Source: Candidatus Fermentibacterota bacterium
GTDB lineage: Bacteria > JAFGKV01
NCBI GenBank assembly: GCA_016928395.1
Contig: JAFGKV010000276.1
Location: 1 to 42,712 of the forward strand
Reading direction: 5' to 3'
Length of the DNA stretch: 42,712 bases
Part shown: positions 3,419-18,955 of the stretch, in pieces
Layout of the letters: each line of letters begins with the position of its first letter
Position numbering within the stretch: position 1 is the first letter of the stretch
Notes under the pieces: model-generated
What the model was told of the DNA's origin: nothing
Seen by the model: the letters and a program-made list of their open reading frames with translations, nothing else
Database searches by the model: none
Made by a program: the position numbers and the translations under genes

Positions 3419-4633
3419 GCCTGCGTGCGCGTGCGCGGAGGCCTTGTCGCTCAGCAACTTGACAGTTTGCCAACGTCCGTGCGCCGGTGTCCCATCGCGG
3501 CAACCTCCTTCTATCACAACGCACCAGACAGATCTAGTTAGCCCGTTGCAGGGTCTAGGTGCCTTGCTGTGGTGAGTTTGGCGACTCGCGTCGTACGAGC
3601 ATGACGATCGCTTCACGTCGGAAGCAGAAGAGTCTTGTCGTGCAGCGTGTTCGACTATGGACGCTCTCTGATCGCGGGTGAGTATTCTCATCGTGGTTTT
3701 CGATTTCGATCTCATGTGCCTCTATCAAGCTCTTAGCCTCCACGCCGAAGGAGCACAGAGCATTGGTGATCACACCCGCTCGACGGAACGCTGTCGAAGC
3801 ACGACACTGCCAACTGGCACGCCATATGATCACTACCTCGTGGGAGGGGCTTGCGGGCATGGCATTACTGCATCATTCGGGGAGCAGGCCATCGGGCACC
3901 GCGTGGGCGAGGATGAGGACCCCCTTCATCTCCGACAGTCGATGACAGAGTGATCCATCGCTGCCGATCCTCGCCCAAAGCCGCGCTGCTCCCGCCGCCA
4001 AGCTAGACGCGTAGCGGCCAACTCTCGCCGCTGCCCCGCTCAGCCGAATCTCAGGGTGTTCCTGCACTACCAGCACCAGCACTGACCGTGCCTCGCTCCG
4101 CTGCCAGTTCTTGCCTCCGGCCGCCAGTTCTTCTTCGCGCAGGCCCTTACCCTGGCATACCCCTCGCGATGATCTCGATCAGCGCATCCCTCTTGCCCTT
4201 CACGGGGCGGCTGCCTCCTGTACCCGCGCCGCGAACGCATCCCTTGCGTTCAAGCGACGGCAGAAAGTGAGAGCGGCATGCTCACGCCGCGAGCGACTGG
4301 TGTTCATAGAGGACATGTCGAAAGGAGGACTGATCCTGTGTGAAGCAGCCGACGAACGTTCAGGACAGGAGCACGATGGGTGCCTGAGAGGGGAGTGGTT
4401 CGGTACGAGAGGATTGTAGAGTAAGGATTTGAACCCCAGGCCGCTCCCCCAACTCGGTCCCCCTCTCGACACCCGAAATCGAGCTGATCTGCGCGGGCCC
4501 TTGAAGGCGCGGCAACGACTACCCTGTGAGGCGTGCGGCTTTTCTCTTTCGTCATGTCGCGTTCGACACTATCGTCTTGCGGCCTGTGCATACTGGTGCA
4601 TACCCGGGTCGTGAGGTCTCTCTTCCGAGTCGT
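3419..4633. other. About 1.2 kb without a recognisable gene
   Basis: Open frames on both strands are short, overlap each other and show no domain, ribosome site or plausible composition. The stretch from about 3530 to 3960 is visibly less GC-rich than its surroundings. It follows the broken transposase directly, so it may be debris of an insertion or deletion event. A tRNA-like patch at 4407-4475 was considered and rejected. Confidence 0.5.
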
Positions 4634-5104
4634 ATGGCCCAGAACCCGGAAGACTTGAACGCAATCCGGAGGAATCCATTGCAGAGAATCGAGTGGACAC
4701 CGAGCCTTTCCGTCGGCGTTGACCTGATCGATGAGCAGCACAAGGCGTTGATCACCCGCATTCGTGATCTCTCCGAAGCGGTGCAGGAGTTCCAGGGCGT
4801 CGATCAGGTGACCACAACCCTGAGTTTCCTGATCGACTACACGGACTACCACTTCGGCACTGAAGAGAAGCACATGCTGGGCCACAACTATCCAGGGTTG
4901 GCGCATCACATGGAGAAGCACGAGGAGTCTCGCACTACCCTAACCAACCTCGAGGGGGACTTTCAGGACGAAGGGTCATCCCAGGCTCTGGCTGAGTCTA
5001 TCCATGCTTTTCTGTTCGAATGGTTGGTGACGCACATTCAGGGTATCGACCAGGGATTCGGCACTTTCCTCGCACAGCAGGGCATCACCCTCCCCATGGA
5101 GTGA
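4634..5104 (+). CDS. Bacteriohemerythrin
   Basis: A 156-residue four-helix oxygen-binding protein of the hemerythrin family, probably cytoplasmic, which carries or senses O2 at a non-haem di-iron site. All seven iron ligands can be placed: His36 (in IDEQHK), His73 and Glu77 (YHFGTEE), His92 and His96 (HHMEKH), His134 and Asp139 (THIQGID). The spacing agrees with the family pattern. The start at the ATG of MAQNPED gives a 15-20 residue lead-in, normal for the family; no good ribosome site precedes it, and the frame stays open upstream with unlikely sequence. It is 144 bp ahead of the cyclase/ATPase gene on the same strand. A shared transcript, with hemerythrin as an oxygen input, is possible but unproven. 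Confidence 0.92.
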   Translation: MAQNPEDLNAIRRNPLQRIEWTPSLSVGVDLIDEQHKALITRIRDLSEAVQEFQGVDQVTTTLSFLIDYTDYHFGTEEKHMLGHNYPGLAHHMEKHEESRTTLTNLEGDFQDEGSSQALAESIHAFLFEWLVTHIQGIDQGFGTFLAQQGITLPME

Positions 5105-5236
5105 AGCCCGACCAGTCAGACCGGGCAATGAATGCACCCCGTGCAGTCGCGCGTGTGCATCGGGTGCGAGACATGATCCTCCACGCTGGTGCTCAGCGAC
5201 TGATGACATAGAAGTGAGTTCACCTCCGTGCCGTTC

Positions 5237-5243
5237 GGGAGGA
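5237..5243 (+). promoter_or_regulatory. Ribosome binding site fixing the cyclase start
   Basis: GGGAGGA sits five bases before the ATG at 5249. This supports that start over the GTG at 5228, which has no such signal. Confidence 0.6.
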
Positions 5244-5248
5244 AGGCC

Positions 5249-8200
5249 ATGGACCGGCTTATTCCGGGGTTCATCACAGAACGTTACCAGAGAGGCGAAG
5301 CGCAAGGTGGCTTCGAGGGTTCCGGGCTGTTTGTCGACATTGCAGGATTCTCCCGACTGACTGACGTCGCCTTTACGCTGGGGGAGGTTGGAGCCGAGCT
5401 CATCGGCCGGGAAATTCCGCGACTTTTCGAGACTCCCGTGCGACTGGTGATCGAGAACGGGGGCATCATCACACACTTCGCGGGAGATGCGTTTCTCGCG
5501 CTCTTCCCGGACGATGGCGGCGGAATCGCCCGGCGTATCGGCCTGGCAATCATAGCCCACTTCGACCGGCACGGCCGGAGTGAGACCCCGCACGGGACCT
5601 TCGACTTCGCGGTGAAGTGTGGAGTGGATGTGGGCAGGGTAGCGTGGGGTATCGTGCAAAGCACACGCCATGCCACGTGGTACTTCCAGGGCGGGCCGGT
5701 GGCAGGAGCCACGGCATTGGAGCGACTCGCCGGCCGGGGGGAGATGATTTGCTCCGACGTGGCGCGGCGTGGGGAGGTGGTCGGGGAAGGCATTCATCCA
5801 ATGGCGCCCCCGAACGATGTCGAGACGCTGTCGGCATTCTTCGACGAGGCGATCCTGGAGCGGGGAACGCTCCGTGAGATCCGGAGGGTCGTCGCGGCAT
5901 TTCTGTCGTTTGTGCGACTGGACGACGAAGGAACCCCTATGTCCATCGAAGATCATCACACCTTGGCCGCACTATTCAAGGCGGTAGACGAGCATCTTCC
6001 CTCCGGCGGCAGGGCCTTCGGCCGGCTGCTGATTGATGACAAGGGACTCAATGTGTTGGCCTATTTCGGGGCCCCCACGGCTTTGGAACACCCGGAGGAA
6101 TCGGCACTGCGTTTCCTGTTCGAGCTCCGGGGGCGGCTGAGTGAAGCCCGGCCCGATGTTCGCCTGCGGGCTGGAGTGGATCGTGGGCTAGTGTATGCCG
6201 GGCTGACCGGTGGGACCCTCCGGCATGAGAGGGCTTTCCTGGGGGATTGCGTCAACGTCTCATCACGGATCATGACCGGCGCTCCGTGGGGCGCGATCCA
6301 CGCCTCGACGCGGGTGGTCGAAGCGGTAGGGGAGGGCTGGGCGTTCACCGAACTGCCTGCGGTGGTCTTCAAAGGCAAGAGTGTTCCTGAGCCCGTGTTT
6401 CAGTTGGAGGGCCCGAGAGAAGGGCCAGGGATTCACACCTACCTGCGGCCGATGATTGGGCGAGAGCGTGAGCTTGCCTGCCTCCACCGGCTGTTGGCCC
6501 CGGCGCTGCGAGGAGAGTTCGCAGGGATGGCGTGTGTATACGGCGAAGCCGGGATGGGGAAGACGCGGCTGGTGGCGGAGTTTCGCAGACAGGTGGAGGA
6601 ATCGGGGAGTCACATGGCGTGGGTGGAGCTGCCGTGTGGAGAGGATGATTTGGGGTTGCAGCCGGTTCGGGCGTGGCTGCACGAGTTTTACGGGGTGACG
6701 CCGTTTACGTCGAATCAGGACAAGCGTACGCACATTGCTGCGAGATGTGCAGCCTTGTCAGCAACGCCGGGGGTATCCGAGGAGACCAGCAGGGAACTGA
6801 AGCGCGTGGAGTCGTTCGTGGCAGCTCTGATAGAATGTCACTGGGAGGGTTCGCTGTTTGAGAAGGTCGAGGATCCCAAGCTTCGGTACGACAATCAACT
6901 GTGGGGGCTCCGGCAGATGATCGTTGCACTGAGTGCCAGTGGTCCTGTGGTGGTGCATGTGGAGGATGCGCACTGGTTGGAGTCCGCGACTGCTGAATGG
7001 CTGGGCATCATGACCCGTGCCACCCAGAACCTGCCGCTGTTCATACTCCTGACTTCCCGCTCCGCAGAGGACGGCACCAAGCCTCAACTCGCAGCGGGAA
7101 TGCAGGCACCAGTGATTGAACTGGACCTCGATCGATTGGACGAAAGGCTCGTGCGGTGTATGGTGCGGATGCTATTGGGTGGCTCCACGGACGATCCGCT
7201 GGTGGCCCTCCTGTTGGAACGCGCGGAGGGAAATCCCTTCTTCGTCGAGCAACTGGTGCTGCATCTGTACGAGAGTGAGTATTTGACCCGGTCCGAGATG
7301 GACGGCCGCTGGGGCCTCTCTAGTCCGGCGGTGGCGGATGAACCCGGCCGTCTACCCGGGACTCTGGAAGCGGTGCTCCTGGCGCGATTCGATCGCCTTG
7401 AGGCCTCACTACGGGAAGGCTTGAAGCACGCAGCGACTCTGGGACCGCGGTTCCTGCATCGCGTGCTGGAGGAGTTGCTGGGGCGGAGCCGGGAGTTTGG
7501 CGCGGAGCCCCTGATGGTCATTCCCCAGGCTGAAGAGCATGCGATGATCCTGCCTGAACGCACGCATCCGTTCGATGCCGAACAGGCCTACCTGTTCAGG
7601 CACGCATTGATGCAGAGAGCGGCATATCATCTGCAGCCGCCTGGTATGCGTGAGTATCTGCATGGTCTGGCCGCAGACGTGGTGGAGGAGTTGTTCCCCA
7701 AACGCGAGGATATGCTGGTAATTCTCGCGGAGCACCTGGGCAAGGCGGGAAGGCGTGAGCGGGAGGCTGAGGTACTGGAGCACGCCGCCGCGGTTGCCAA
7801 GCGGGGCTACCGAAACGCTGAGGCCATTGCGCTGTATGAGCGACTTCGGGACCGATTGAAGCGGCTCGGCGCGGAGGAGTCCGAGCGCATGGTCCGTGCG
7901 CTCTACAGCCTGGCGGCGGTGAAATGGTTGGTGGGTGACTGGAGGCAGGCCCATGACGTGACACAGATAGGCTGCGCAATCGCCGAACGACTTGGCACTG
8001 ATGACCTGGTAGTCGATGGGTGGGTTCTCGCTGCAGAGCAACTGAGAAACCTCGGGGAACCCACGTGCGCTCAGGAGAGAGCGCACGCGGCGCGGGACCG
8101 TGCGACCCGGTGCGACTACCTGTTGGGCATTGCGCGTGCATTGGGGGTTCTCGGCCGGCTGTACTGGAACCAGGGTGAATATCAGCGCGCTCTCGAAGCG

Positions 8201-9268
8201 ATTCAAGGACAACTCTGCCGTGCGGACGAAGCCGGAAACGAGGCTGAGGCGCTCAATGCCAAGGGCACTCTGGGCATCGTGCTGTGGGCTCAGGGTCATC
8301 ACCCGCAGGCGCTGGAGTGTTTCAGGGATTGGCAGAAGAGGGCGGAGAGGGTAGGGGATCGACGCGGTGTCGGCAGAGCCATCGGCAATCAGGGGTTGGT
8401 GTACTGGGACTTTGGTGACTATGACCGGGCCCTGGAGTGCTACAAGGAGCAGACTCGGCAGGGAACAGAGGTGGGGGATTGGGAGAGCGTGACGCTCGGC
8501 AGTGGCAACAGCGGCAATGTGTACTGCGAGCAGGGAGAGTATGCCCGGGCGCTGGAGTGCTTCCAGGAGTGGCAGTGCCGGGCAGAAATCTTGGGAGACC
8601 GGCTGGGGGTGAGCAATGCCATCGGCAATCAAGGGAACGTATGCCTGCACGTGGGAAGGTATCGGCAGGCGCTTCAGCACAGTGAGGAATTTGTCGATCG
8701 CGCCAGGGCGCTCGGTGACCGGTTTGGCATTGCATTCGGTCTTGGGCAACAAGGGTATGCCCACCTCTTTCTCGGGGATACGACCCAAGCCTTGAAGTGC
8801 TTCCGGAAGGCGTTGACCGAAACGGAGGAATCGGGTGACAGCAAGAACGCCGCACCCGCGCTTCTCGGCATGAGCATGGCTCACCAGCATCGGAACGAAT
8901 ACGAGCAGGCGCTCGCCTGCAGTCAGAAGAGCCTCGCTATTGCCAGTGAGGAAGGCTCGCCGAACCGCATTTCAGGGGCCCGCGCACAAGCCGCAGCAGT
9001 GCTCCTTGCTATGGGGAGAACGGCCGAAGCCGCGGCCGAGGCTGGCCAGGCCCTTGAGATTGCGCGGGGCCTTCATACGCGCCCCGCCTTGATTGAGCCG
9101 CTAATGGTATTCGCTGAGGTGCAGGCGCGAGAAGGTGACATCCTCCAGGCAACCAACTCGTTGGCCGAGGCCCGTCAGATCGCTGAGGATCTCGGCCTCG
9201 CGCATCGAGTAGCCGAGATCGAACGGGTTTCTGCGCGACTCATGCCGCCTGAGGCGCGGCCCAGCTGA
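5249..9268 (+). CDS. Adenylate/guanylate cyclase-like, AAA ATPase and TPR multidomain protein
   Basis: A 1339-residue signalling protein with the architecture of soluble adenylyl cyclases. Domain 1 (about residues 25-190) is a class III cyclase homology domain that keeps both metal-binding aspartates: Asp30 in FVDIAGFSRLT and Asp80 in HFAGDAF. Domain 2 (about 215-385) has the same fold (RAGVDRGLVYAG, GDCVNVSSR), but its metal region is degenerate (DDKGLNVLAYFG), as in the C2 half of mammalian soluble cyclase. An IGRERE linker leads to an AAA_16-type ATPase with Walker A GEAGMGKT (432-439) and a VHVEDAHW Walker B motif. The C-terminal third (about 850-1330) is a run of about ten TPR-like repeats with recurring GNQGxVYxxxGxYxxAL units. 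No membrane segment or signal peptide is seen. Likely a cytoplasmic sensor or regulator; whether it makes cAMP is not shown. Confidence 0.9.
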   Translation: MDRLIPGFITERYQRGEAQGGFEGSGLFVDIAGFSRLTDVAFTLGEVGAELIGREIPRLFETPVRLVIENGGIITHFAGDAFLALFPDDGGGIARRIGLAIIAHFDRHGRSETPHGTFDFAVKCGVDVGRVAWGIVQSTRHATWYFQGGPVAGATALERLAGRGEMICSDVARRGEVVGEGIHPMAPPNDVETLSAFFDEAILERGTLREIRRVVAAFLSFVRLDDEGTPMSIEDHHTLAALFKAVDEHLPSGGRAFGRLLIDDKGLNVLAYFGAPTALEHPEESALRFLFELRGRLSEARPDVRLRAGVDRGLVYAGLTGGTLRHERAFLGDCVNVSSRIMTGAPWGAIHASTRVVEAVGEGWAFTELPAVVFKGKSVPEPVFQLEGPREGPGIHTYLRPMIGRERELACLHRLLAPALRGEFAGMACVYGEAGMGKTRLVAEFRRQVEESGSHMAWVELPCGEDDLGLQPVRAWLHEFYGVTPFTSNQDKRTHIAARCAALSATPGVSEETSRELKRVESFVAALIECHWEGSLFEKVEDPKLRYDNQLWGLRQMIVALSASGPVVVHVEDAHWLESATAEWLGIMTRATQNLPLFILLTSRSAEDGTKPQLAAGMQAPVIELDLDRLDERLVRCMVRMLLGGSTDDPLVALLLERAEGNPFFVEQLVLHLYESEYLTRSEMDGRWGLSSPAVADEPGRLPGTLEAVLLARFDRLEASLREGLKHAATLGPRFLHRVLEELLGRSREFGAEPLMVIPQAEEHAMILPERTHPFDAEQAYLFRHALMQRAAYHLQPPGMREYLHGLAADVVEELFPKREDMLVILAEHLGKAGRREREAEVLEHAAAVAKRGYRNAEAIALYERLRDRLKRLGAEESERMVRALYSLAAVKWLVGDWRQAHDVTQIGCAIAERLGTDDLVVDGWVLAAEQLRNLGEPTCAQERAHAARDRATRCDYLLGIARALGVLGRLYWNQGEYQRALEAIQGQLCRADEAGNEAEALNAKGTLGIVLWAQGHHPQALECFRDWQKRAERVGDRRGVGRAIGNQGLVYWDFGDYDRALECYKEQTRQGTEVGDWESVTLGSGNSGNVYCEQGEYARALECFQEWQCRAEILGDRLGVSNAIGNQGNVCLHVGRYRQALQHSEEFVDRARALGDRFGIAFGLGQQGYAHLFLGDTTQALKCFRKALTETEESGDSKNAAPALLGMSMAHQHRNEYEQALACSQKSLAIASEEGSPNRISGARAQAAAVLLAMGRTAEAAAEAGQALEIARGLHTRPALIEPLMVFAEVQAREGDILQATNSLAEARQIAEDLGLAHRVAEIERVSARLMPPEARPS

Positions 9269-11572: not shown

Positions 11573-12559
11573 CTACTCAGATGTGCCGCTGCAGATGGCC
11601 CGTCCGCCGTGAAGTGCCGTGCCGAGGATGCGCTCGCAGGCCTTGTCGTCGGTGTGGTAGCCCGACTTCTTCGTAGTCTTCTGCCGGAGCACCAGCACCT
11701 CGGCATCCTTGTTCGCCTGGTACTCACAGATCACCTTGGGCTGCAGGGGCATCTTCTTGTGCCACGCGGCGAGCCCAAAGCCGGGTGTGGCTGCCAGCAC
11801 GCAGTAGAAGTAGGGGTAGCTCGTCCCCTGGACGATATTGAGATTGATTTGCGCCTGGAGCCCGTAGAGTCCTTCCGGAGACGAGGGAAAGGCAACGGAG
11901 AATCGGGCGTCGACGGGCACCGACCCCTCACCCTTGCGGGCCAGAAGCAGTGCCGGCTGGAACACCTCGCCCTCCTTGCCGATCTTTGCGAATGCCTGGT
12001 GCATCTTGAGTATGATGTTCACCCGGATGGCCAGGTTAGGATGCTTGAGCATGAACCGCATACCCGTGAGCCAGAACAGCCACAGTATTACGAGGCCGTC
12101 CAATGCCACGATGAGCGCGACGCGCACGTCATCGCCCAGCACTCCAATACCCACGGACACCGCAATCACCAGAGCAGTGAGGACCACCAGCAAGGTGCAC
12201 CCCAAAGGGTTTGATGCATCGAAGGCATCGCGGTCCCACTCCTTGGCCCGCTTCCTGAGGGTCTCCAGCTCCCGTATGCGCTCGATGGACACGGGTTTCC
12301 AGGCGGGATCGATGTCGAAGGTTTTGAACCGGATCCGGCTGTCATATCCCCGCACGGCCACGAAAAGTGCGGCCGCAATGAGGAAAGGAAGGCCGGCCAG
12401 CGCATTCAGCGTGGCGATCTGCAGCGCACACGCAGCAACGGACAGAAGCAGCCCGATGAGCATCCGGCGGCTGTAGGGCAGGTCTTTGGCGACATAGAAC
12501 CGGATGCTGTCGTGCTCCTTCCCGGCAAGCGGGCTCTGTGATGCAGGGGTGGCGCTCAT
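11573..12559 (-). CDS. Multi-pass membrane protein of the CHSA/radical SAM operon
   Basis: A 328-residue integral membrane protein of a family I do not recognise. Four hydrophobic helices are visible at about residues 33-51, 54-69, 119-141 and 147-165, in two pairs. A charged segment (IERIRELETLRKRAKEWDRD) separates the pairs, and a long soluble C-terminal half (about 170-328) follows the last helix. There is no signal peptide. The start codon overlaps the radical SAM stop by four bases (ATGA, 12556-12559), so translation is probably coupled. Its constant position as third gene implies a role with the modified CHSA protein, perhaps as membrane partner or scaffold; that is inference. The last helices resemble no transporter motif I know. 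Confidence 0.8.
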   Translation of the reverse strand: MSATPASQSPLAGKEHDSIRFYVAKDLPYSRRMLIGLLLSVAACALQIATLNALAGLPFLIAAALFVAVRGYDSRIRFKTFDIDPAWKPVSIERIRELETLRKRAKEWDRDAFDASNPLGCTLLVVLTALVIAVSVGIGVLGDDVRVALIVALDGLVILWLFWLTGMRFMLKHPNLAIRVNIILKMHQAFAKIGKEGEVFQPALLLARKGEGSVPVDARFSVAFPSSPEGLYGLQAQINLNIVQGTSYPYFYCVLAATPGFGLAAWHKKMPLQPKVICEYQANKDAEVLVLRQKTTKKSGYHTDDKACERILGTALHGGRAICSGTSE

Positions 12560-13878
12560 GACACGTTCCTCCCTACGGCCGCGATGGCCGGTTCGATCTC
12601 GTCATAGTCGTGGGCATGGAAGTACAGGGGGCATGCCCCCTGGCACAGGGCAAACTCAGGGCACGGCCTGCACAAGGGATGTGCTTCGCGTTTCTCCCTG
12701 ATGTGCCGGGTTCGGGGGCCGAACCAAATGCGGCTGAACCCATCCTCGAGAATGCTGCCCAAAGGTTCGGGCCAACTGGAACACGGCAAGACCTGCCCGG
12801 AGGGATCGATGGAGAGCAGCCCTTCGCAGGCTGCGCAACTCTTATTGCCCAGCCCCTGCTGGACAGGGTTGAACAGGCAGACGGGAATCGGGGAGTACCA
12901 CATGAAGTGAATGCTCTCCGACCGCGCCGCTGCCACGATCTCTGGCAGGAGGGCTGCGGCCTCGCGATAGGTGGTTGCTAGCTCGGGGTCGATCCCCCTT
13001 CCGGCGGGGATCACCAGGTTTGCCGAGCATCGCGTCGCCCCAAGGCTGCGGGCAAAGGCAGGAAGCAGGGTCGCGGTGTCCAGGTTCATGGCGCACAGTG
13101 TCGTATGCGGATGGACATGCACGCCGGCCTCCTGGAGGGCATGAAGCCCGGCCACCGATGCGGCGTGAGCCCCGCCTTGCCCCACGATCCGGTCATGGAT
13201 CGCCGGTTCCGGCGACTCGATGCTCACCTGGGCCGATGCAAGCCCGCGTTTCTTCAACGTTGCAGCCACGGCTCTATCGATGAGGGTTCCATTGGTGATG
13301 AGGTTGACTCGCATGTCAAGGGAGCGGGCATAGGCCACCAGGTCAGGGAGATCCGGCCGAAGCATGGGTTCTCCGCCGGTGAATGAGACGCTGGGAACCT
13401 CGGCATCCTGCCGGATGATGCGGAGGACATCCTTGACGGTCTTTGTATCCATCTCGGCTTTTGGGGCCGGTTCGCTCACGTGACGGCATGCCGCATAGCA
13501 GAATTGGCATCGGAGATTGCATCGGAAGGTCAGGGAAATCTCCGAGAGGATGGGCAACTCAATGTAACCCAGTGCAAAGGGTGACCGCCGAATGGCCGGC
13601 GACCAGTGTTCGTCGGACAACTCATCGCTCAAGACCCGGGACAGGTCAGTGAAAAACACCGCCAGGTCGCGAGAGACATTCCCGTCACCGTCGTGACGGA
13701 TGATGTCGGCGATACTCCCGCCGGCGAGGAGATGGTGAAGGGTGCGGGCACCCGTTCTGTTCAGCCTGAACGCCTGATTGGGCATGCGGATGAGCACATT
13801 GTCAGTCAGGCGAACGTGGACATAGGGCCGGATAGAATCTATGAATCCGTCGACCCACTCCAGGGCCGCAGTCTCCAT
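12556..13878 (-). CDS. Radical SAM/SPASM enzyme with fused N-terminal PqqD-like domain
   Basis: A 440-residue peptide-modifying radical SAM candidate. Residues about 20-90 look like a PqqD-type RiPP recognition element (VLIRMPNQAFRLNRTGARTL, then a short helix pair ending FFTDLSRVL). The radical SAM core carries the [4Fe-4S] motif C-x3-C-x2-C at Cys120, Cys124 and Cys127, then SFTGGEP for SAM binding. The C-terminal SPASM domain has two auxiliary-cluster cysteine sets: Cys348, Cys351 and Cys366, then Cys403, Cys406, Cys412 and Cys416. The start at 13878 overlaps the stop of the CHSA-repeat gene (TGATG), so the two are made together; a longer frame to 13938 would run into the repeat gene. The substrate is inferred to be the adjacent CHSA tail. 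Expected chemistry for this class is a radical-based crosslink or epimerisation, but the product is unknown. Confidence 0.93.
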   Translation of the reverse strand: METAALEWVDGFIDSIRPYVHVRLTDNVLIRMPNQAFRLNRTGARTLHHLLAGGSIADIIRHDGDGNVSRDLAVFFTDLSRVLSDELSDEHWSPAIRRSPFALGYIELPILSEISLTFRCNLRCQFCYAACRHVSEPAPKAEMDTKTVKDVLRIIRQDAEVPSVSFTGGEPMLRPDLPDLVAYARSLDMRVNLITNGTLIDRAVAATLKKRGLASAQVSIESPEPAIHDRIVGQGGAHAASVAGLHALQEAGVHVHPHTTLCAMNLDTATLLPAFARSLGATRCSANLVIPAGRGIDPELATTYREAAALLPEIVAAARSESIHFMWYSPIPVCLFNPVQQGLGNKSCAACEGLLSIDPSGQVLPCSSWPEPLGSILEDGFSRIWFGPRTRHIREKREAHPLCRPCPEFALCQGACPLYFHAHDYDEIEPAIAAVGRNVS

Positions 13879-15560
13879 CAATGGCCTCCACCGCTTACGC
13901 AGGCGGAGTGACACGCCGAATGGCAGGCGGAGTGGCACGCGGAGTGACAGGCGGAGTGGCAGGCCGAATGGCAGGCGTCATGGCAGGCGGCATGGCATGC
14001 CTGGATACCGCCCAGATCCCGGGCTACCTGCGCGAAGGAGATGGCATCCGGATTCACAGGAAGAGATGCCTCGAACTCATAGTCGTGCCGGGCAGGGTCG
14101 AAACGATCCCCCTGATGTGCCGATGCGTGATACCAGTACCACCAACTCCGTTCGGGATGACTGTCGTACACCGGGCCGTCATCGACCATGGTCTGTTCCT
14201 GGCTCGTGGGCCGGCCTGCGTCGCGCATGGTACGGCCAATCTTGTCGCCATAGAAACGCTTGGTGGCCTCGATGTCGCAATCCCACGCCTTTTCCTGCAC
14301 GGTGCGCACCATCTTCTGCAGGAGCTCCTCCAGTTCGGCGGTGCTGAACTGCCCATCGTCCTTGGCGGCCTGAAGCAACGTGTATTCGTGGGGGCCAAGG
14401 CTGCTGAGTGATTCCGGGGCGGGGCGGGCGACCTCGACGATCAGCGGATCGCGACTGATGACGGTGATGAAGCCCCGGGCCGCCAGGTGCGAGAGCATGG
14501 TGGAGAGGATCTGCTTGTAGGGTACGCCGAGAAACAGCGCCGCCTCGACGGGGTCGAGGGTGTCGGCCACCTTCCCAGGCTTGCGGAACGACGCAAGCTC
14601 GATCACGGGAGGTTCCCAGTCTTCCCGTACCCATCGGACGTCGTCCAGTTGCTCATGCGCCTTGCCAAGAGACCGGTGCTTGCCCCTCACTACGAAGGCG
14701 CCAAACCCAAGTAGTGCCACCATGGCAACCGCAAGAACCTGCCTGGCGCGGCGGGGGTCAGACACCGCGGCAGTGGAGGATGAGCTCTCGTCAGTCTCCA
14801 GAGCGGTTCGAGGCACAGATGCTTCCCGATCCCGAAGCCCCGGGAAGACCTCCGCGTGCACATACTGCTGGATCCTGAAGTCATAGCGGGAAGAAGGCCG
14901 ATTCTTGTGCAGCAGCACCTGGATCCGTTGCTCGTCTTGGACGGCGACCACCCGGTAGTCAATGAGATACTCCTTGTTCATCCATGACTCGGTCGCAAAT
15001 CCCCGGTCAAGCAACGCGCGCTCTACGGCGGCGCGGGAACCGTCTGCATCGGCGTAGGGGATAGGGTAGGTCACGCGTACGGTGTAGTGATCCATGGATT
15101 CGTCCCACTGGGTGGGCGACCAATGAAGCACCACAAGGTCGTGGCCATCATCCGTGGTGGTGGGCGCGAGGTAGCCCGCGATGGCCATGTCGGCAGCGAA
15201 GCGGAATCGGTAGGTGACCTCGCCTGAGGAGACGCCCTGGTCTCCCGCAAGGATGATATCCCACTGGCCGGATCTATAGGGTGTGATGTCAAGGCCATAT
15301 GTTCGCCCCTGGCTGTCAATGGCCGATGCGTGCTCGGTGTCGAATACCGGTTGCAGGAGACCCACGCCGCCGAAGTAGAATCCATGGAACTCGCCGGAAC
15401 GAACCTCGTAGCGCACCACATATTCGAGGACAGCCTGACCATCGGGGAAGAGGGTTACGTCGGTCTCCACGAAGCGCAATGATCCGGTGCCCGCCGAGGC
15501 GGGACCGGTCAGCCAACAGACGACGGCAAGGGTGAGAGCGAGCCGGTGTCGATGGGTCAT
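13878..15560 (-). CDS. Membrane protein with cytoplasmic Cys-His-Ser-Ala repeat tail (DUF2207-like)
   Basis: A 560-residue protein. A signal peptide (about 1-23) precedes an extracytoplasmic beta-rich domain (about 25-250, including LEYVVRYEV and TYRFRFAADMAIAGYLAP), which fits the DUF2207 pattern. A Ser-rich linker and one membrane helix (about 274-292) follow. The cytoplasmic part has a winged-helix-like segment (DPVEAALFLGVPYKQI, HLAARGFITV), also DUF2207-like. The last 39 residues are eight C-H-x-A units (one CHAA, one CHDA, six CHSA) and then CVSGGGH, giving nine Cys at every fourth residue from 522. Ribosome site AGGAGT is eight bases before the ATG. The radical SAM gene starts on its stop codon. 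I infer that the tail is the modified substrate. Metal or cluster binding by the unmodified Cys/His array is an alternative. Confidence 0.88.
   Translation of the reverse strand: MTHRHRLALTLAVVCWLTGPASAGTGSLRFVETDVTLFPDGQAVLEYVVRYEVRSGEFHGFYFGGVGLLQPVFDTEHASAIDSQGRTYGLDITPYRSGQWDIILAGDQGVSSGEVTYRFRFAADMAIAGYLAPTTTDDGHDLVVLHWSPTQWDESMDHYTVRVTYPIPYADADGSRAAVERALLDRGFATESWMNKEYLIDYRVVAVQDEQRIQVLLHKNRPSSRYDFRIQQYVHAEVFPGLRDREASVPRTALETDESSSSTAAVSDPRRARQVLAVAMVALLGFGAFVVRGKHRSLGKAHEQLDDVRWVREDWEPPVIELASFRKPGKVADTLDPVEAALFLGVPYKQILSTMLSHLAARGFITVISRDPLIVEVARPAPESLSSLGPHEYTLLQAAKDDGQFSTAELEELLQKMVRTVQEKAWDCDIEATKRFYGDKIGRTMRDAGRPTSQEQTMVDDGPVYDSHPERSWWYWYHASAHQGDRFDPARHDYEFEASLPVNPDAISFAQVARDLGGIQACHAACHDACHSACHSACHSACHSACHSACHSACVSGGGH
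13902..13997 (-). repeat. Eight in-frame 12-bp tandem repeats (CHxA codons)
   Basis: Ninety-six bases made of eight 12-bp units, consensus TGCCACTCCGCC on the minus strand. Variation is mostly silent (TGC/TGT, CAC/CAT, TCC/TCG, GCC/GCG), while Cys-His and the final Ala are invariant. The two units farthest from the C-terminus encode CHAA and CHDA. The synonymous differences show that the repeat is not a fresh expansion and that its protein sequence is maintained by selection. Confidence 0.9.
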
Positions 15561-16216: not shown

Positions 16217-17056
16217 CTAGTGACGGAGGACCATCAGCATCGCGGCCGCGCTTGCGGCGACAGCGATGCTGCCGGCTAGCAGCTGGATGAGGCGCGAGTT
16301 ACGATGAGTGAGGGTGTGGAGCCAGCCGAGGGCAAGACCTGCGAGAAGCCCGAACAGATGAGCTGACAGGTCCGTGCGAGGCCCCGTGCCGAGGAAGCTG
16401 AGAAACGCCAGTGCGGCTGCCAGAGGTGCCCATGATCGAAGCCGGGGCGCTGCGGCCGCTCGATGTTCCACGAACCGCCGTGCCGCCAGGATGCCTACTG
16501 CGGCGAACACTGCGGTGGATGCACCGATGGACAGCCTATATGTGTTGTGGGTCACTCCGTTGAGTGTATTGCCGACTGCTCCAGCCGCCAGAATGAGCAG
16601 GGCGCCCACACCGGGGCCGGTGCCGGCCGCAACCCCGGATCCCAGGACGGCAAGGGCAACGGCGTTGCCCGCTAAGTGCTGGACATCTGCATGGATGAAC
16701 AAGGCGGTGACGCATCGGTGGAATTCACCGCGGCGCAGCAGATATCCTGAGATTCCCCCACGACGGATCACCGAGTCGTGACCCTGCCACAGGGTAATGC
16801 CATGGGCCACTATGATCAGCAGAGCGAAGACGATGCCCGCGTGGGACCATTGTGCGGGGCGGTTCGCTGCCCGGAAGGCGGATTCGCGGGAATGATCTCG
16901 AATGGCCCGGATGGCCAGATGCGATTCCAGAAACGGCACCTCGATCGTCCACTGGCCATCATCCTTGGATGCCCGCGACGAGATTCCAGAGGCCGCCAAG
17001 AGGGCCGAAATGGTCTCGACAGCCTTTTCCGACGTCTCACGGGCAACGGTGACCAT
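16217..17056 (-). CDS. Rhomboid family intramembrane serine protease
   Basis: A 279-residue rhomboid protease, which cuts membrane proteins within or near their transmembrane helices. A soluble N-terminal segment (VETISALLAASGISSRASKDDG, typical of the family) precedes six or seven hydrophobic helices. Hallmarks visible in order are the loop ALFIHADVQHLAGNAV (HxxxxHxxxN-like), the nucleophile motif GASTAVFA, and the catalytic histidine in DLSAHLFGLLAG. The start at 17056 puts the N-terminal domain in register. A GTG at 17158 is in frame, but the extra 34 residues are Pro/Arg-rich and lie across a small hairpin (GAGGCC-CGAA-GGCCTC). It follows the radical SAM and tRNA-binding genes on the same strand. 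A role in processing a modified membrane protein such as the CHSA protein is possible but unproven. Confidence 0.88.
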   Translation of the reverse strand: MVTVARETSEKAVETISALLAASGISSRASKDDGQWTIEVPFLESHLAIRAIRDHSRESAFRAANRPAQWSHAGIVFALLIIVAHGITLWQGHDSVIRRGGISGYLLRRGEFHRCVTALFIHADVQHLAGNAVALAVLGSGVAAGTGPGVGALLILAAGAVGNTLNGVTHNTYRLSIGASTAVFAAVGILAARRFVEHRAAAAPRLRSWAPLAAALAFLSFLGTGPRTDLSAHLFGLLAGLALGWLHTLTHRNSRLIQLLAGSIAVAASAAAMLMVLRH

Positions 17057-17161
17057 GGCGAGTGCTGCTGGTCTATCCCCGGCAGAGAAAACCGGAGGAG
17101 GGCCACCGTCGATTTCGGGGCGGCGTGGAGGCCGGGGGGAGAGGCCTTCGGGCCTCACCTG

Positions 17162-17488
17162 TCAGGAGACCCGTGACCCCGTCGGTACGGCGGTCATTGG
17201 AGCAATCAATACCGGAGTGTTGCTCTGGGGATCCAGGGCTGCCAGGAGCATGCCGCACGACTCGATGCCCCGAATGCGTGCCGGCTGGAGGTTGGCCACC
17301 AGGACGATTTGCTTTCCTGCCAAATCCTCGGCAGGGTACGCCTGGGCGATGCCGGCCACTATGGTTCTCGTGTCCGAGCCGGTGTCCACCACGAGCCGAA
17401 GGAGTCTGTCCGCGCTGGGAATGGGCTCGGCAGACATGACGGTCGCGACCACCAAGTCCAGCTTCTTGAAGTCGTCGAAGGAGATCAC
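17162..17488 (-). CDS. Stand-alone tRNA-binding (EMAP/CsaA-like OB-fold) protein
   Basis: A 108-residue OB-fold domain like the C-terminal dimerisation/tRNA-binding part of bacterial methionyl-tRNA synthetase and the chaperone-like CsaA. Visible signatures are FKKLDLVVATVMSAEPIPSADRLLRL at the start, then TIVAGIAQAYPAEDLAGKQIVLVANL and ARIRGIESCGMLLAA. It is separate from any synthetase catalytic part. The GTG start overlaps the radical SAM stop (GTGA) and is preceded by GGGAGG, so expression is coupled to that enzyme. Known members bind tRNA or assist export. Why one sits in a radical SAM operon is unclear; it may be incidental. Confidence 0.88.
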   Translation of the reverse strand: MISFDDFKKLDLVVATVMSAEPIPSADRLLRLVVDTGSDTRTIVAGIAQAYPAEDLAGKQIVLVANLQPARIRGIESCGMLLAALDPQSNTPVLIAPMTAVPTGSRVS

Positions 17489-18597
17489 GAGGCCTCCCGT
17501 TGGGGCAGGGGCGCAGCACCCTGGGTTTCACGGGATATGCGGGCACGGCGGACCTCGTCCATCAGCCGGGCGCGATGGCAGGCGGTTTCATATGCCGCCA
17601 GAGGGTCGCCTTTCTCCAAGGCTGCGGTGGCGGGACAACGGAAGCACAGCGGTAGGAGCTCACATTCCCGGCATTCGGGCGCGCTCTTGCGCCGGGCAGC
17701 CCGCAATTCCAGCATCACCGGGGAGTTGGCCCAGATGTCGGCAAACCGCTGAGTACGGAGGTTTCCCGCCGACCATGGATACTGCATGCAGGGGAGCACG
17801 TCGCCGTTCCACGAAATGTCGCAGAAGCTGACACCTGCCCTGCACATGTAGCCATTCAAACGGTCTTCCCGGTTTTCCTGGAGCTGCACATTGTCGAAGG
17901 AGAGAGAACCGGGTCCTAACGTGGGATCGGCAACCAGCTCCTTGAATTGATCATCGGTCAAGGCCATCTCCAACGTGTCAATGCTGCCGTCATTCCGACT
18001 GCTGACTGTCGGGTCAAGGGAGAAGGGAATGCCCAGATCCCGAGCCATGGCGACGATCTGCGGGTACTCGTGGAAGTTGGCCTGCATGAGCAGAGTCTTG
18101 ATGCGGGTCTTGACGCCCGCTTCCTTCAAGAGATGAATAGCGTGGGTAGCGCGGGCGAAGGAGCCCTTGCTTTGGGTAATCCCGTCGTGGGTAGCCGGTT
18201 CGGCGCCGAGAATGCTAATGCTTACCTGCCATACCGCCAGCTCGCGGAGCCGCCGGGCCGTGGCGGGGCCGATAAGCGTGCCATTGGTGTAGATCTCGAT
18301 GTTGAAGGTTTTCTCTCGGGCGTGCAAGACAAGCTCCAGGAAGTCGCTCCGAATGAACGGTTCGCCACCGGAGAACGTAAGGCGCAGAGCGCCGGCATCG
18401 GCAAGTTGGTTCAGCGCGTCCTTTGCATCTTCCGTGGTGAGCTCGTCCGCATGAGACTCACGGTGACCGACCACATAACACATCGAGCAATCCAGATTGC
18501 ATCGCCGGGTGATCTCGAAGATGACATCATGGGGTATTGACCGGGAGGCCACCTCGCGGTTTGCCCTGAACAGCAGAGGGATTCTCGATTCCGACAA
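17485..18597 (-). CDS. PqqE-like radical SAM/SPASM enzyme
   Basis: A 370-residue radical SAM enzyme with a SPASM domain, of the type that modifies peptides. The cluster motif C-x3-C-x2-C is at Cys33, Cys37 and Cys40 (RRCNLDCSMC), followed by TFSGGEP for SAM binding. The SPASM cysteines are Cys252, Cys259 and Cys270, then Cys309, Cys312, Cys318 and Cys321, with a further Cys340. Unlike the enzyme at 12556-13878 it has no fused recognition domain; the PqqD-like protein 20 bp upstream probably supplies one in trans. The start is a TTG with GGAG six bases before it. I see no obvious precursor peptide beside it, so its substrate is unknown. Confidence 0.93.
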   Translation of the reverse strand: MSESRIPLLFRANREVASRSIPHDVIFEITRRCNLDCSMCYVVGHRESHADELTTEDAKDALNQLADAGALRLTFSGGEPFIRSDFLELVLHAREKTFNIEIYTNGTLIGPATARRLRELAVWQVSISILGAEPATHDGITQSKGSFARATHAIHLLKEAGVKTRIKTLLMQANFHEYPQIVAMARDLGIPFSLDPTVSSRNDGSIDTLEMALTDDQFKELVADPTLGPGSLSFDNVQLQENREDRLNGYMCRAGVSFCDISWNGDVLPCMQYPWSAGNLRTQRFADIWANSPVMLELRAARRKSAPECRECELLPLCFRCPATAALEKGDPLAAYETACHRARLMDEVRRARISRETQGAAPLPQREAS

Positions 18598-18617
18598 TCA
18601 AATCTCCAAATGAAGTA

Positions 18618-18902
18618 TCACGTATTATTCGATAGAACGAGAAGGCGAAGCTTGTCAGAGGAGAGATTGGTCACAAACTCTAAAACATCATTCTCGGCCT
18701 GGGTATCTTCAACCTCGAATTCGCCACATATTGATTCGATGATTGAGCGAACCGTGGTGGCTCCATCAGCCAGTTCCCAGATACGTGTACCCACTTCATC
18801 AAGAGAATGAAGCATGCTGTCTTCGGCAGAGATGAGAATTGCTTCGCCGTCAATCACGCGCCATGCGACGTCTTTGTTTCTGGCCACGACTTTATCCAGC
18901 AT
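18618..18902 (-). CDS. PqqD-like peptide-binding protein (RRE)
   Basis: A 94-residue protein of the PqqD fold, which binds the leader or substrate of a partner radical SAM enzyme. Family features are the W-R-V-I-D-G-E-A strand, MLHSLDEVGTRIWELADGATTV (the LN-x-xG-xxIWxLxDG pattern) and a C-terminal helix. I chose the ATG at 18902 because GGAGG lies upstream and the predicted promoter (18956-18984) would start transcription near 18949, leaving almost no leader for the in-frame ATG at 18941. It is followed after 20 bp by the PqqE-like gene. Its base composition is visibly less GC-rich than its neighbours, a hint of different origin. Confidence 0.85.
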   Translation of the reverse strand: MLDKVVARNKDVAWRVIDGEAILISAEDSMLHSLDEVGTRIWELADGATTVRSIIESICGEFEVEDTQAENDVLEFVTNLSSDKLRLLVLSNNT

Positions 18903-18955
18903 CCAGCATTGACCTCCATACTTGTCACCGGGCACTTCCATGAATAATGCCCTGA

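Follow-up and report, generated by a model that had tools for sequence, protein, structure and literature searches.

A radical SAM/SPASM enzyme with a fused recognition domain and its presumed substrate, the Cys-His-Ser-Ala tail of a membrane protein

A stretch of 42,712 nucleotides from a Candidatus Fermentibacterota bacterium, referred to below as the window, encodes a radical SAM/SPASM enzyme that probably modifies the repeated Cys-His-Ser-Ala (CHSA) tail of the membrane protein encoded by the adjacent gene, as a dedicated maturase of that protein. The enzyme and the CHSA tail apparently constitute an undescribed protein-modification system of two to three genes, which is widespread and has a sister system with a different (CACA) tail. 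No description of either system was found in NCBIfam, Pfam or the open literature, subscription papers and radical SAM RiPP atlases being outside the scope of the search.

A coupled three-gene operon

The enzyme gene occupies the minus strand from 13878 to 12556 as one open reading frame of 440 amino acids; the plus strand of the same interval is interrupted by stops. Its ATG at 13878 overlaps the TGA of the upstream CHSA-repeat gene by one base (TGATG), and the enzyme gene's own stop is overlapped (ATGA) by the start of a third gene (12559-11573). The CHSA-tail gene, the radical SAM gene and the third gene form a coupled operon with the following features:

13878-15560, minus strand: CHSA-tail membrane protein, 560 aa (Pfam DUF2207, AlphaFold2 model, hydropathy)
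13881-13997, minus strand: C-terminal tail, residues 522-560, eight CHxA units and CVSGGGH, presumed substrate (pattern matches, identity)
12556-13878, minus strand: RRE-radical SAM-SPASM enzyme, 440 aa (ORF, Pfam, AlphaFold model, structure matches)
13609-13878, minus strand: N-terminal RRE, PqqD-type winged helix, residues 1-90 (AlphaFold2 topology of three strands and three helices, structure and profile matches)
13498-13521, minus strand: CxxxCxxC motif for the SAM [4Fe-4S] cluster, C120, C124 and C127 (invariant in 67/67)
12631-12879, minus strand: SPASM region, C334, C348, C366, C403, C406, C412 and C416 (invariant; last canonical Cys missing, E427 nearly invariant)
11573-12559, minus strand: third gene, membrane protein of 328 aa, unknown family (ATGA overlap with the enzyme gene)

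Several other genes of the window were noted. A second radical SAM/SPASM gene and a separate PqqD-like gene upstream of it occupy 17485-18941 (minus strand), and no precursor peptide was recognised with them; this radical SAM gene is kept nearby in G001 and absent from the contig of G002, these being two relatives from the window's own family. A Rhomboid-family protease gene (16217-17158, minus strand) separates the CHSA operon from this second radical SAM gene, and is near the operon in G001 too. A Cyclase-AAA-TPR protein of 1346 aa (5228-9268, plus strand) matches TIGR03903 at E 1e-50, below the cut-off.

Domains and cluster cysteines of the enzyme

Pfam assigns to the enzyme a Radical_SAM domain (PF04055, E 1e-24) and a SPASM domain (PF13186, E 5e-9), the latter matched in 66 of 67 enzyme relatives. 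An AlphaFold model built on 67 relatives has a mean pLDDT of 92.7 and a pTM of 0.92. At the N-terminus it carries the three strands and three helices of an RRE-fused RiPP maturase: helix 3-19 is followed by three strands (20-38) and three helices (41-83), the same topology as described for the RRE of SkfB (PMC6231123). In structural alignment with VIA-align the model matched SkfB best (Z 28.3, over its residues 18-418), followed by SuiB (Z 26.3, over residues 11-430), with further matches to anSME (Z 24.7), TigE (Z 21.3) and the epimerase EpeE (Z about 18). Since the SkfB and SuiB matches begin at model residue 10-18, they include the N-terminal domain. A profile of this domain matches TfuB1, an RRE, at E 2e-4 and gives a weak match to PqqD (E 0.3); the Pfam PqqD model is matched in 37 of the 67 relatives (best 6e-11) and by the window enzyme itself only at E 0.14. 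The initial annotation had read the N-terminal 90 or so residues as a fused PqqD-type RRE and proposed structure prediction as the check. The RRE fold obtained, its alignment with SkfB and SuiB, the TfuB1 profile match and the PqqD matches among relatives bear that reading out. Comparison of the RRE profile with the window's separate PqqD-like protein (18621-18941) returned a probability of 2.7% and nothing useful, so this neighbour lends no support to the RRE. None of the named NCBIfam radical SAM equivalogs (NirJ2, AhbD, PqqE, SkfB, GeoRSP, HxsC4 and others) reaches its cut-off on the enzyme, the best score being 124 bits against 500.

Ten cysteines are invariant in all 67 relatives. Three of them (C120, C124, C127) make up the CxxxCxxC motif, which together with the PF04055 match and the structure matches of the model identifies a member of the radical SAM superfamily, defined by this motif in a partial TIM barrel. 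The other seven (C334, C348, C366, C403, C406, C412, C416) belong to the SPASM region, where the first six positions of the motif CX9-15GX4C-CX2CX5CX3C-C are present and invariant. The last SPASM cysteine is missing throughout the family, with no Cys column past C416 even at 30%, and an extra invariant cysteine, C334, lies upstream. By analogy with anSME, SuiB and PqqE, four of the seven may serve auxiliary cluster I and three auxiliary cluster II. Seven is one short of eight, which implies, at one of the auxiliary clusters, a position that is either open or filled by a ligand other than Cys. An Asp serves as auxiliary-cluster ligand in PqqE, and E427, present in 62 of 67 relatives, is a candidate for a comparable role here. 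Thus the initial count of cysteines (ten or more, read as fitting one SAM and two SPASM clusters) stands, and full cysteine ligation of both SPASM clusters does not, the final ligand being missing.

Architecture and conservation of the tail protein

The tail protein comprises a signal peptide, an extracytoplasmic DUF2207 domain (about residues 25-240; Pfam E 4e-7 in the window), a transmembrane helix (about 274-292), an inner winged-helix-like domain and the tail, a near-perfect Cys-His-Ser-Ala repeat that in the window copy runs to eight CHxA units and then CVSGGGH. In the AlphaFold2 model the tail itself is of low confidence (pLDDT about 45). A structure search showed a likeness between the outer domain and the N-terminal beta domain of M1 aminopeptidases, and was otherwise uninformative. 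Lys and Arg are more numerous after the transmembrane helix than before it in 33 of 44 family members; in the window protein the two sides tie, 3 vs 3. The signal peptide and the family bias predict a cytosolic tail. As a probably cytosolic, membrane-anchored peptide, the tail is not an ordinary exported RiPP.

The tail is far better conserved than the protein that carries it. Across 46 relatives the median pairwise identity is 0.91 in the tail, falling to 0.30 in each of the two folded domains and to 0.15 in the linker. Compared with G001 and G002, the window gene differs in 14 and 23, respectively, of the 35 tail codons, with zero amino-acid changes. Together, the hyperconserved peptide and the silent codon changes indicate purifying selection on the tail peptide itself. 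Within CHxx units the fourth residue is Ala in 402 of 402 and the third is Ser in 349 of 402, figures partly biased by a search pattern that demanded C, H and A in three units. A leader-like segment had been proposed at residues 470-520, and this part of the initial annotation was not supported in that form: no leader for the RRE is conserved across the family, the linker is the least conserved part of the protein, and only short, class-specific conserved segments occur just upstream of the tail.

Distribution and co-occurrence of enzyme and tail

A scan of 84,980 species with a DNA pattern encoding CHxACHxACH gave at least 116 matching stretches. Matches to CHRACHRACH, CHLACHLACH and CHPACHPACH in short or arginine-rich frames were dropped as chance or out-of-frame. 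At least 78 are genuine C-terminal CHSA tails, from at least about 25 named bacterial and archaeal phyla; among the matches listed, the archaeal carriers are Thorarchaeota and Heimdallarchaeota (Asgard) and Thermoproteota. One cultured carrier is Desulfobulbus alkaliphilus DSM 24258 (L067). Among the matches listed, most tail loci have a homologue of the window enzyme directly adjoining (E 1e-7 to 1e-175, the weak values reflecting genes cut by locus ends). Nine tail genomes were checked genome-wide, seven whose tail locus showed no enzyme in the stretch analysed and two with the enzyme some 4 kb away, and all nine carry it. Each of the three Candidatus Fermentibacterota genomes examined has the tail gene and an adjoining enzyme. 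In genome G252 enzyme and tail are on separate contigs. In two Thorarchaeota loci (L020 and L087) the enzyme gene is divergent from the tail gene, and after it comes a minus-strand ORF (oriented coordinates 379-1567 in L020 and 508-1651 in L087) that looks by eye like a PLP enzyme of the D-threonine aldolase/alanine racemase type.

In a sample of 386 genomes the enzyme (E < 1e-140) was found in 10 and the CHSA pattern in nine, all nine within those 10. The remaining genome, G391, has a match that begins only at model position 125, in an open frame of 320 residues, so its enzyme gene is truncated, probably by the end of a contig.

Two further loci carry small exported-looking proteins unlike the CHSA protein, ending CHSACHGACHGACHGARGWR in Pseudomonas mucoides (L080, 716-7467, plus strand) and CYTNCYGNCYNNCHGACHGACHGSRGWR in L123 (231-7999, plus strand). 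Each has at least three radical SAM genes from other subfamilies around it, and looks like an independent Cys/His-repeat modification cluster.

A sister system with a CACA tail

In eight more of the 386 genomes there is an enzyme of a second tier (E between 1e-88 and 1e-97) and no CHSA tail. In their neighbourhoods a similar membrane protein ending CACACAGCACACAGGGR was seen in four cases, and the sister enzyme clade is accompanied in 8 of 8 by a tail that differs from CHSA, the CACA tail CACACAGCACACAGGG, borne by a membrane protein of the same kind. The exact pattern of the sister tail matches precisely those 8 of 386 genomes, with no crossing between the two systems. In each of two genera (g105 and g181) one genome has both the sister enzyme and its tail and another has neither. 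By the hypergeometric distribution, which ignores kinship, the chance of the observed overlap is about 2e-17 for CHSA and 9e-17 for CACA; each system is represented by six families within the sample.

The two systems share a homologous RRE-radical SAM-SPASM enzyme (E about 1e-90) and a scaffold of outer domain, transmembrane helix, inner domain and Cys tail. They differ in that the CACA repeat lacks His, and in that the canonical last SPASM cysteine is present in seven of the eight sister enzymes. The sister system has no NCBIfam name. Its loci are L166-L173; in L168, for example, the membrane protein with the tail CACACAGCACACAGGGR lies at 5272-7200 and the second-tier radical SAM gene at 3952-5268 (minus strand).

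Tail classes and the third gene

The CHSA tails fall into two classes, plain and interrupted by units of the CVHDAC or CVCHSAC type. Mapped on the enzyme tree, tail class requires one change, and 0 of 500 shuffles gave a number as low. The third gene, which in the window encodes a membrane protein of about 330 residues, has homologues in 40 of the 57 loci that are long enough to include one; almost all of these loci belong to the plain-tail class and none to the interrupted-tail class. Its product matches nothing in Pfam or NCBIfam and may be a membrane partner. In 13 loci of the interrupted-tail class (L033, oriented 6553-7768, and 12 others) a coiled-coil protein of about 400 aa stands in the place of the third gene, and nine of these also carry a membrane/zinc-ribbon protein of about 180 aa. 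Linked inheritance explains part of the concordance between tail class and enzyme tree, and the swap of tail in the sister system is the stronger argument for enzyme-tail specificity. When neighbourhood ORFs of at least 120 aa were clustered, no gene family recurred widely except enzyme, tail and third gene. Within the same size range there was no other recurrent peptide substrate and no recurrent protease or exporter gene.

The initial proposal that the CHSA protein is the substrate of the enzyme is thus strengthened by recurrent pairing in at least about 25 phyla, by the match within the 386 genomes, by the matching sister tail and by the tree split.

Proposed modification and alternatives

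In the proposed mechanism, the tail protein would be inserted through its signal peptide and single transmembrane helix, which would put DUF2207 on the outer side of the membrane and the CHSA tail on the cytosolic side. The RRE of the enzyme would grip the tail protein close to where the tail begins. The radical SAM cluster would generate a 5'-deoxyadenosyl radical to abstract hydrogen from one residue in each successive CHxA unit. The electron would pass to the auxiliary clusters, and the site not ligated by cysteine may bind a tail Cys. The product would most likely be a chain of small rings, each closed by a thioether from Cys to the alpha- or beta-carbon of a residue close by. The cytosolic side, the order of events, RRE binding near the tail start and modification of each CHxA unit are all deduced rather than observed. 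Thioether rings to a neighbouring residue are tentatively favoured, at slightly under an even chance, because the sactionine synthase SkfB is the nearest solved enzyme, an auxiliary cluster is one Cys short, and Cys and Ala are common to both tails; Ala is, for the latter reason and on sequence grounds, the candidate acceptor.

Epimerisation or another crosslink is the main rival to thioether chemistry. The tail could be modified by epimerisation of Ala or Ser to give a D,L repeat, by C-C or C-N crosslinks at His, or by oxidation of Cys or Ser to an aldehyde, and some chemistry of this kind is a serious if lesser possibility. SPASM enzymes perform all of these reactions, EpeE, anSME and TigE are among the structure matches given above, and the tail is strictly periodic, as epimerase substrates can be. 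Yet the closest enzyme by both sequence and fold is the thioether synthase SkfB, and Cys is what the two tail types keep constant; a His crosslink would moreover leave the sister pair unexplained, the CACA tail having no His.

An unmodified tail that functions by metal binding or redox chemistry at its Cys and His, with the enzyme acting elsewhere in the pathway and the tail protein as its partner or regulator, is unlikely. CH repeats could bind Cu, Zn or Fe-S, as Cys-rich bufferins bind copper (PMC12452194), and the third gene is co-conserved too. However, such an arrangement would explain neither the exact pairing of sister enzymes with two different Cys tails nor the RRE, and the neighbourhood ORFs of at least 120 aa offer no other recurrent peptide substrate. 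Far less probable still is a c-type haem attachment array (CxxxCH) beside an incidental radical SAM gene: CHSACH does contain the CX3CH spacing, an uncommon haem c motif, but haem c attachment is extracytoplasmic, and the reading was rejected on the predicted cytosolic topology, on the sharing of every Cys between two overlapping motifs and on the His-free sister tail, with only enzyme, tail and third gene recurring widely nearby.

Relation to known systems

The SkfB/CteB/SuiB maturases share with the window enzyme the domain order RRE-radical SAM-SPASM/Twitch, and SkfB is its best PDB match by sequence and fold. In place of a short precursor with leader and core, the partner here is a membrane protein of 560 residues whose tail is a repeat; a conserved leader is lacking, and no recurrent protease or exporter gene was seen among ORFs of at least 120 aa. 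The SPASM region also differs, lacking the last Cys and having the invariant upstream C334.

A second comparison is provided by the TIGR04222 (near_uncomplex) membrane proteins with Cys-rich C-termini, which have been proposed as substrates of MNIO enzymes (PMC12452194). They share a DUF2207/TIGR04222-like scaffold, a low-complexity C-terminal Cys tail and an adjoining gene for a modifying enzyme. TIGR04222 scores 31.6 bits on the window tail protein, below its 43-bit cut-off, and matches at any level in just 13 of 46 relatives. The enzyme here is a radical SAM protein, and the tail is predicted to be cytosolic, whereas TIGR04222 tails are periplasmic (PMC12452194). MNIO as the tail-modifying enzyme was rejected, no MNIO gene (PF05114) being found in 17 genomes of the CHSA and CACA systems, with two control genomes positive. 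Conceivably, two unrelated enzyme families, one using oxidative iron and one radical SAM chemistry, modify Cys tails of one broad scaffold family.

TIGR04117 (Syntroph_Cxxx), which we take from the model name to be a Cys-Xaa-Xaa-Xaa repeat radical SAM target protein, has, like the CHSA protein, a Cys at each fourth position and is likewise a proposed substrate of radical SAM modification. Its model spans 98 residues and describes a small protein, in contrast to the 560-residue membrane protein here, and membership was rejected at a best score of 21 bits against a cut-off of 50. The His-Xaa-Ser (Hxs) system likewise pairs a short-period repeat containing His and Ser with radical SAM enzymes; on the window enzyme the HxsC4 model scores 73 bits against a cut-off of 500.

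Implications

Most of what is known of radical SAM chemistry on peptides concerns short ones, either exported or serving as cofactors. In the present system, a full-size membrane protein appears to have its tail remodelled by a dedicated enzyme, in at least about 25 phyla of both prokaryotic domains. With the CHSA and CACA pairs, nature offers a swap experiment that bears on the chemistry and on how specific each enzyme is for its tail. The tail is far more conserved than its carrier protein, which suggests a basic cellular role and not a strain-specific antibiotic, a membrane redox or metal function being the best guess. More speculatively, these proteins may represent a widespread, undescribed class in Bacteria and in Asgard and Thermoproteota archaea, in which a cytosolic, radical-SAM-crosslinked Cys-repeat tail of the CHSA or CACA type would serve as a built-in redox or metal cofactor, possibly as an anaerobic counterpart of the MNIO-modified TIGR04222 proteins.
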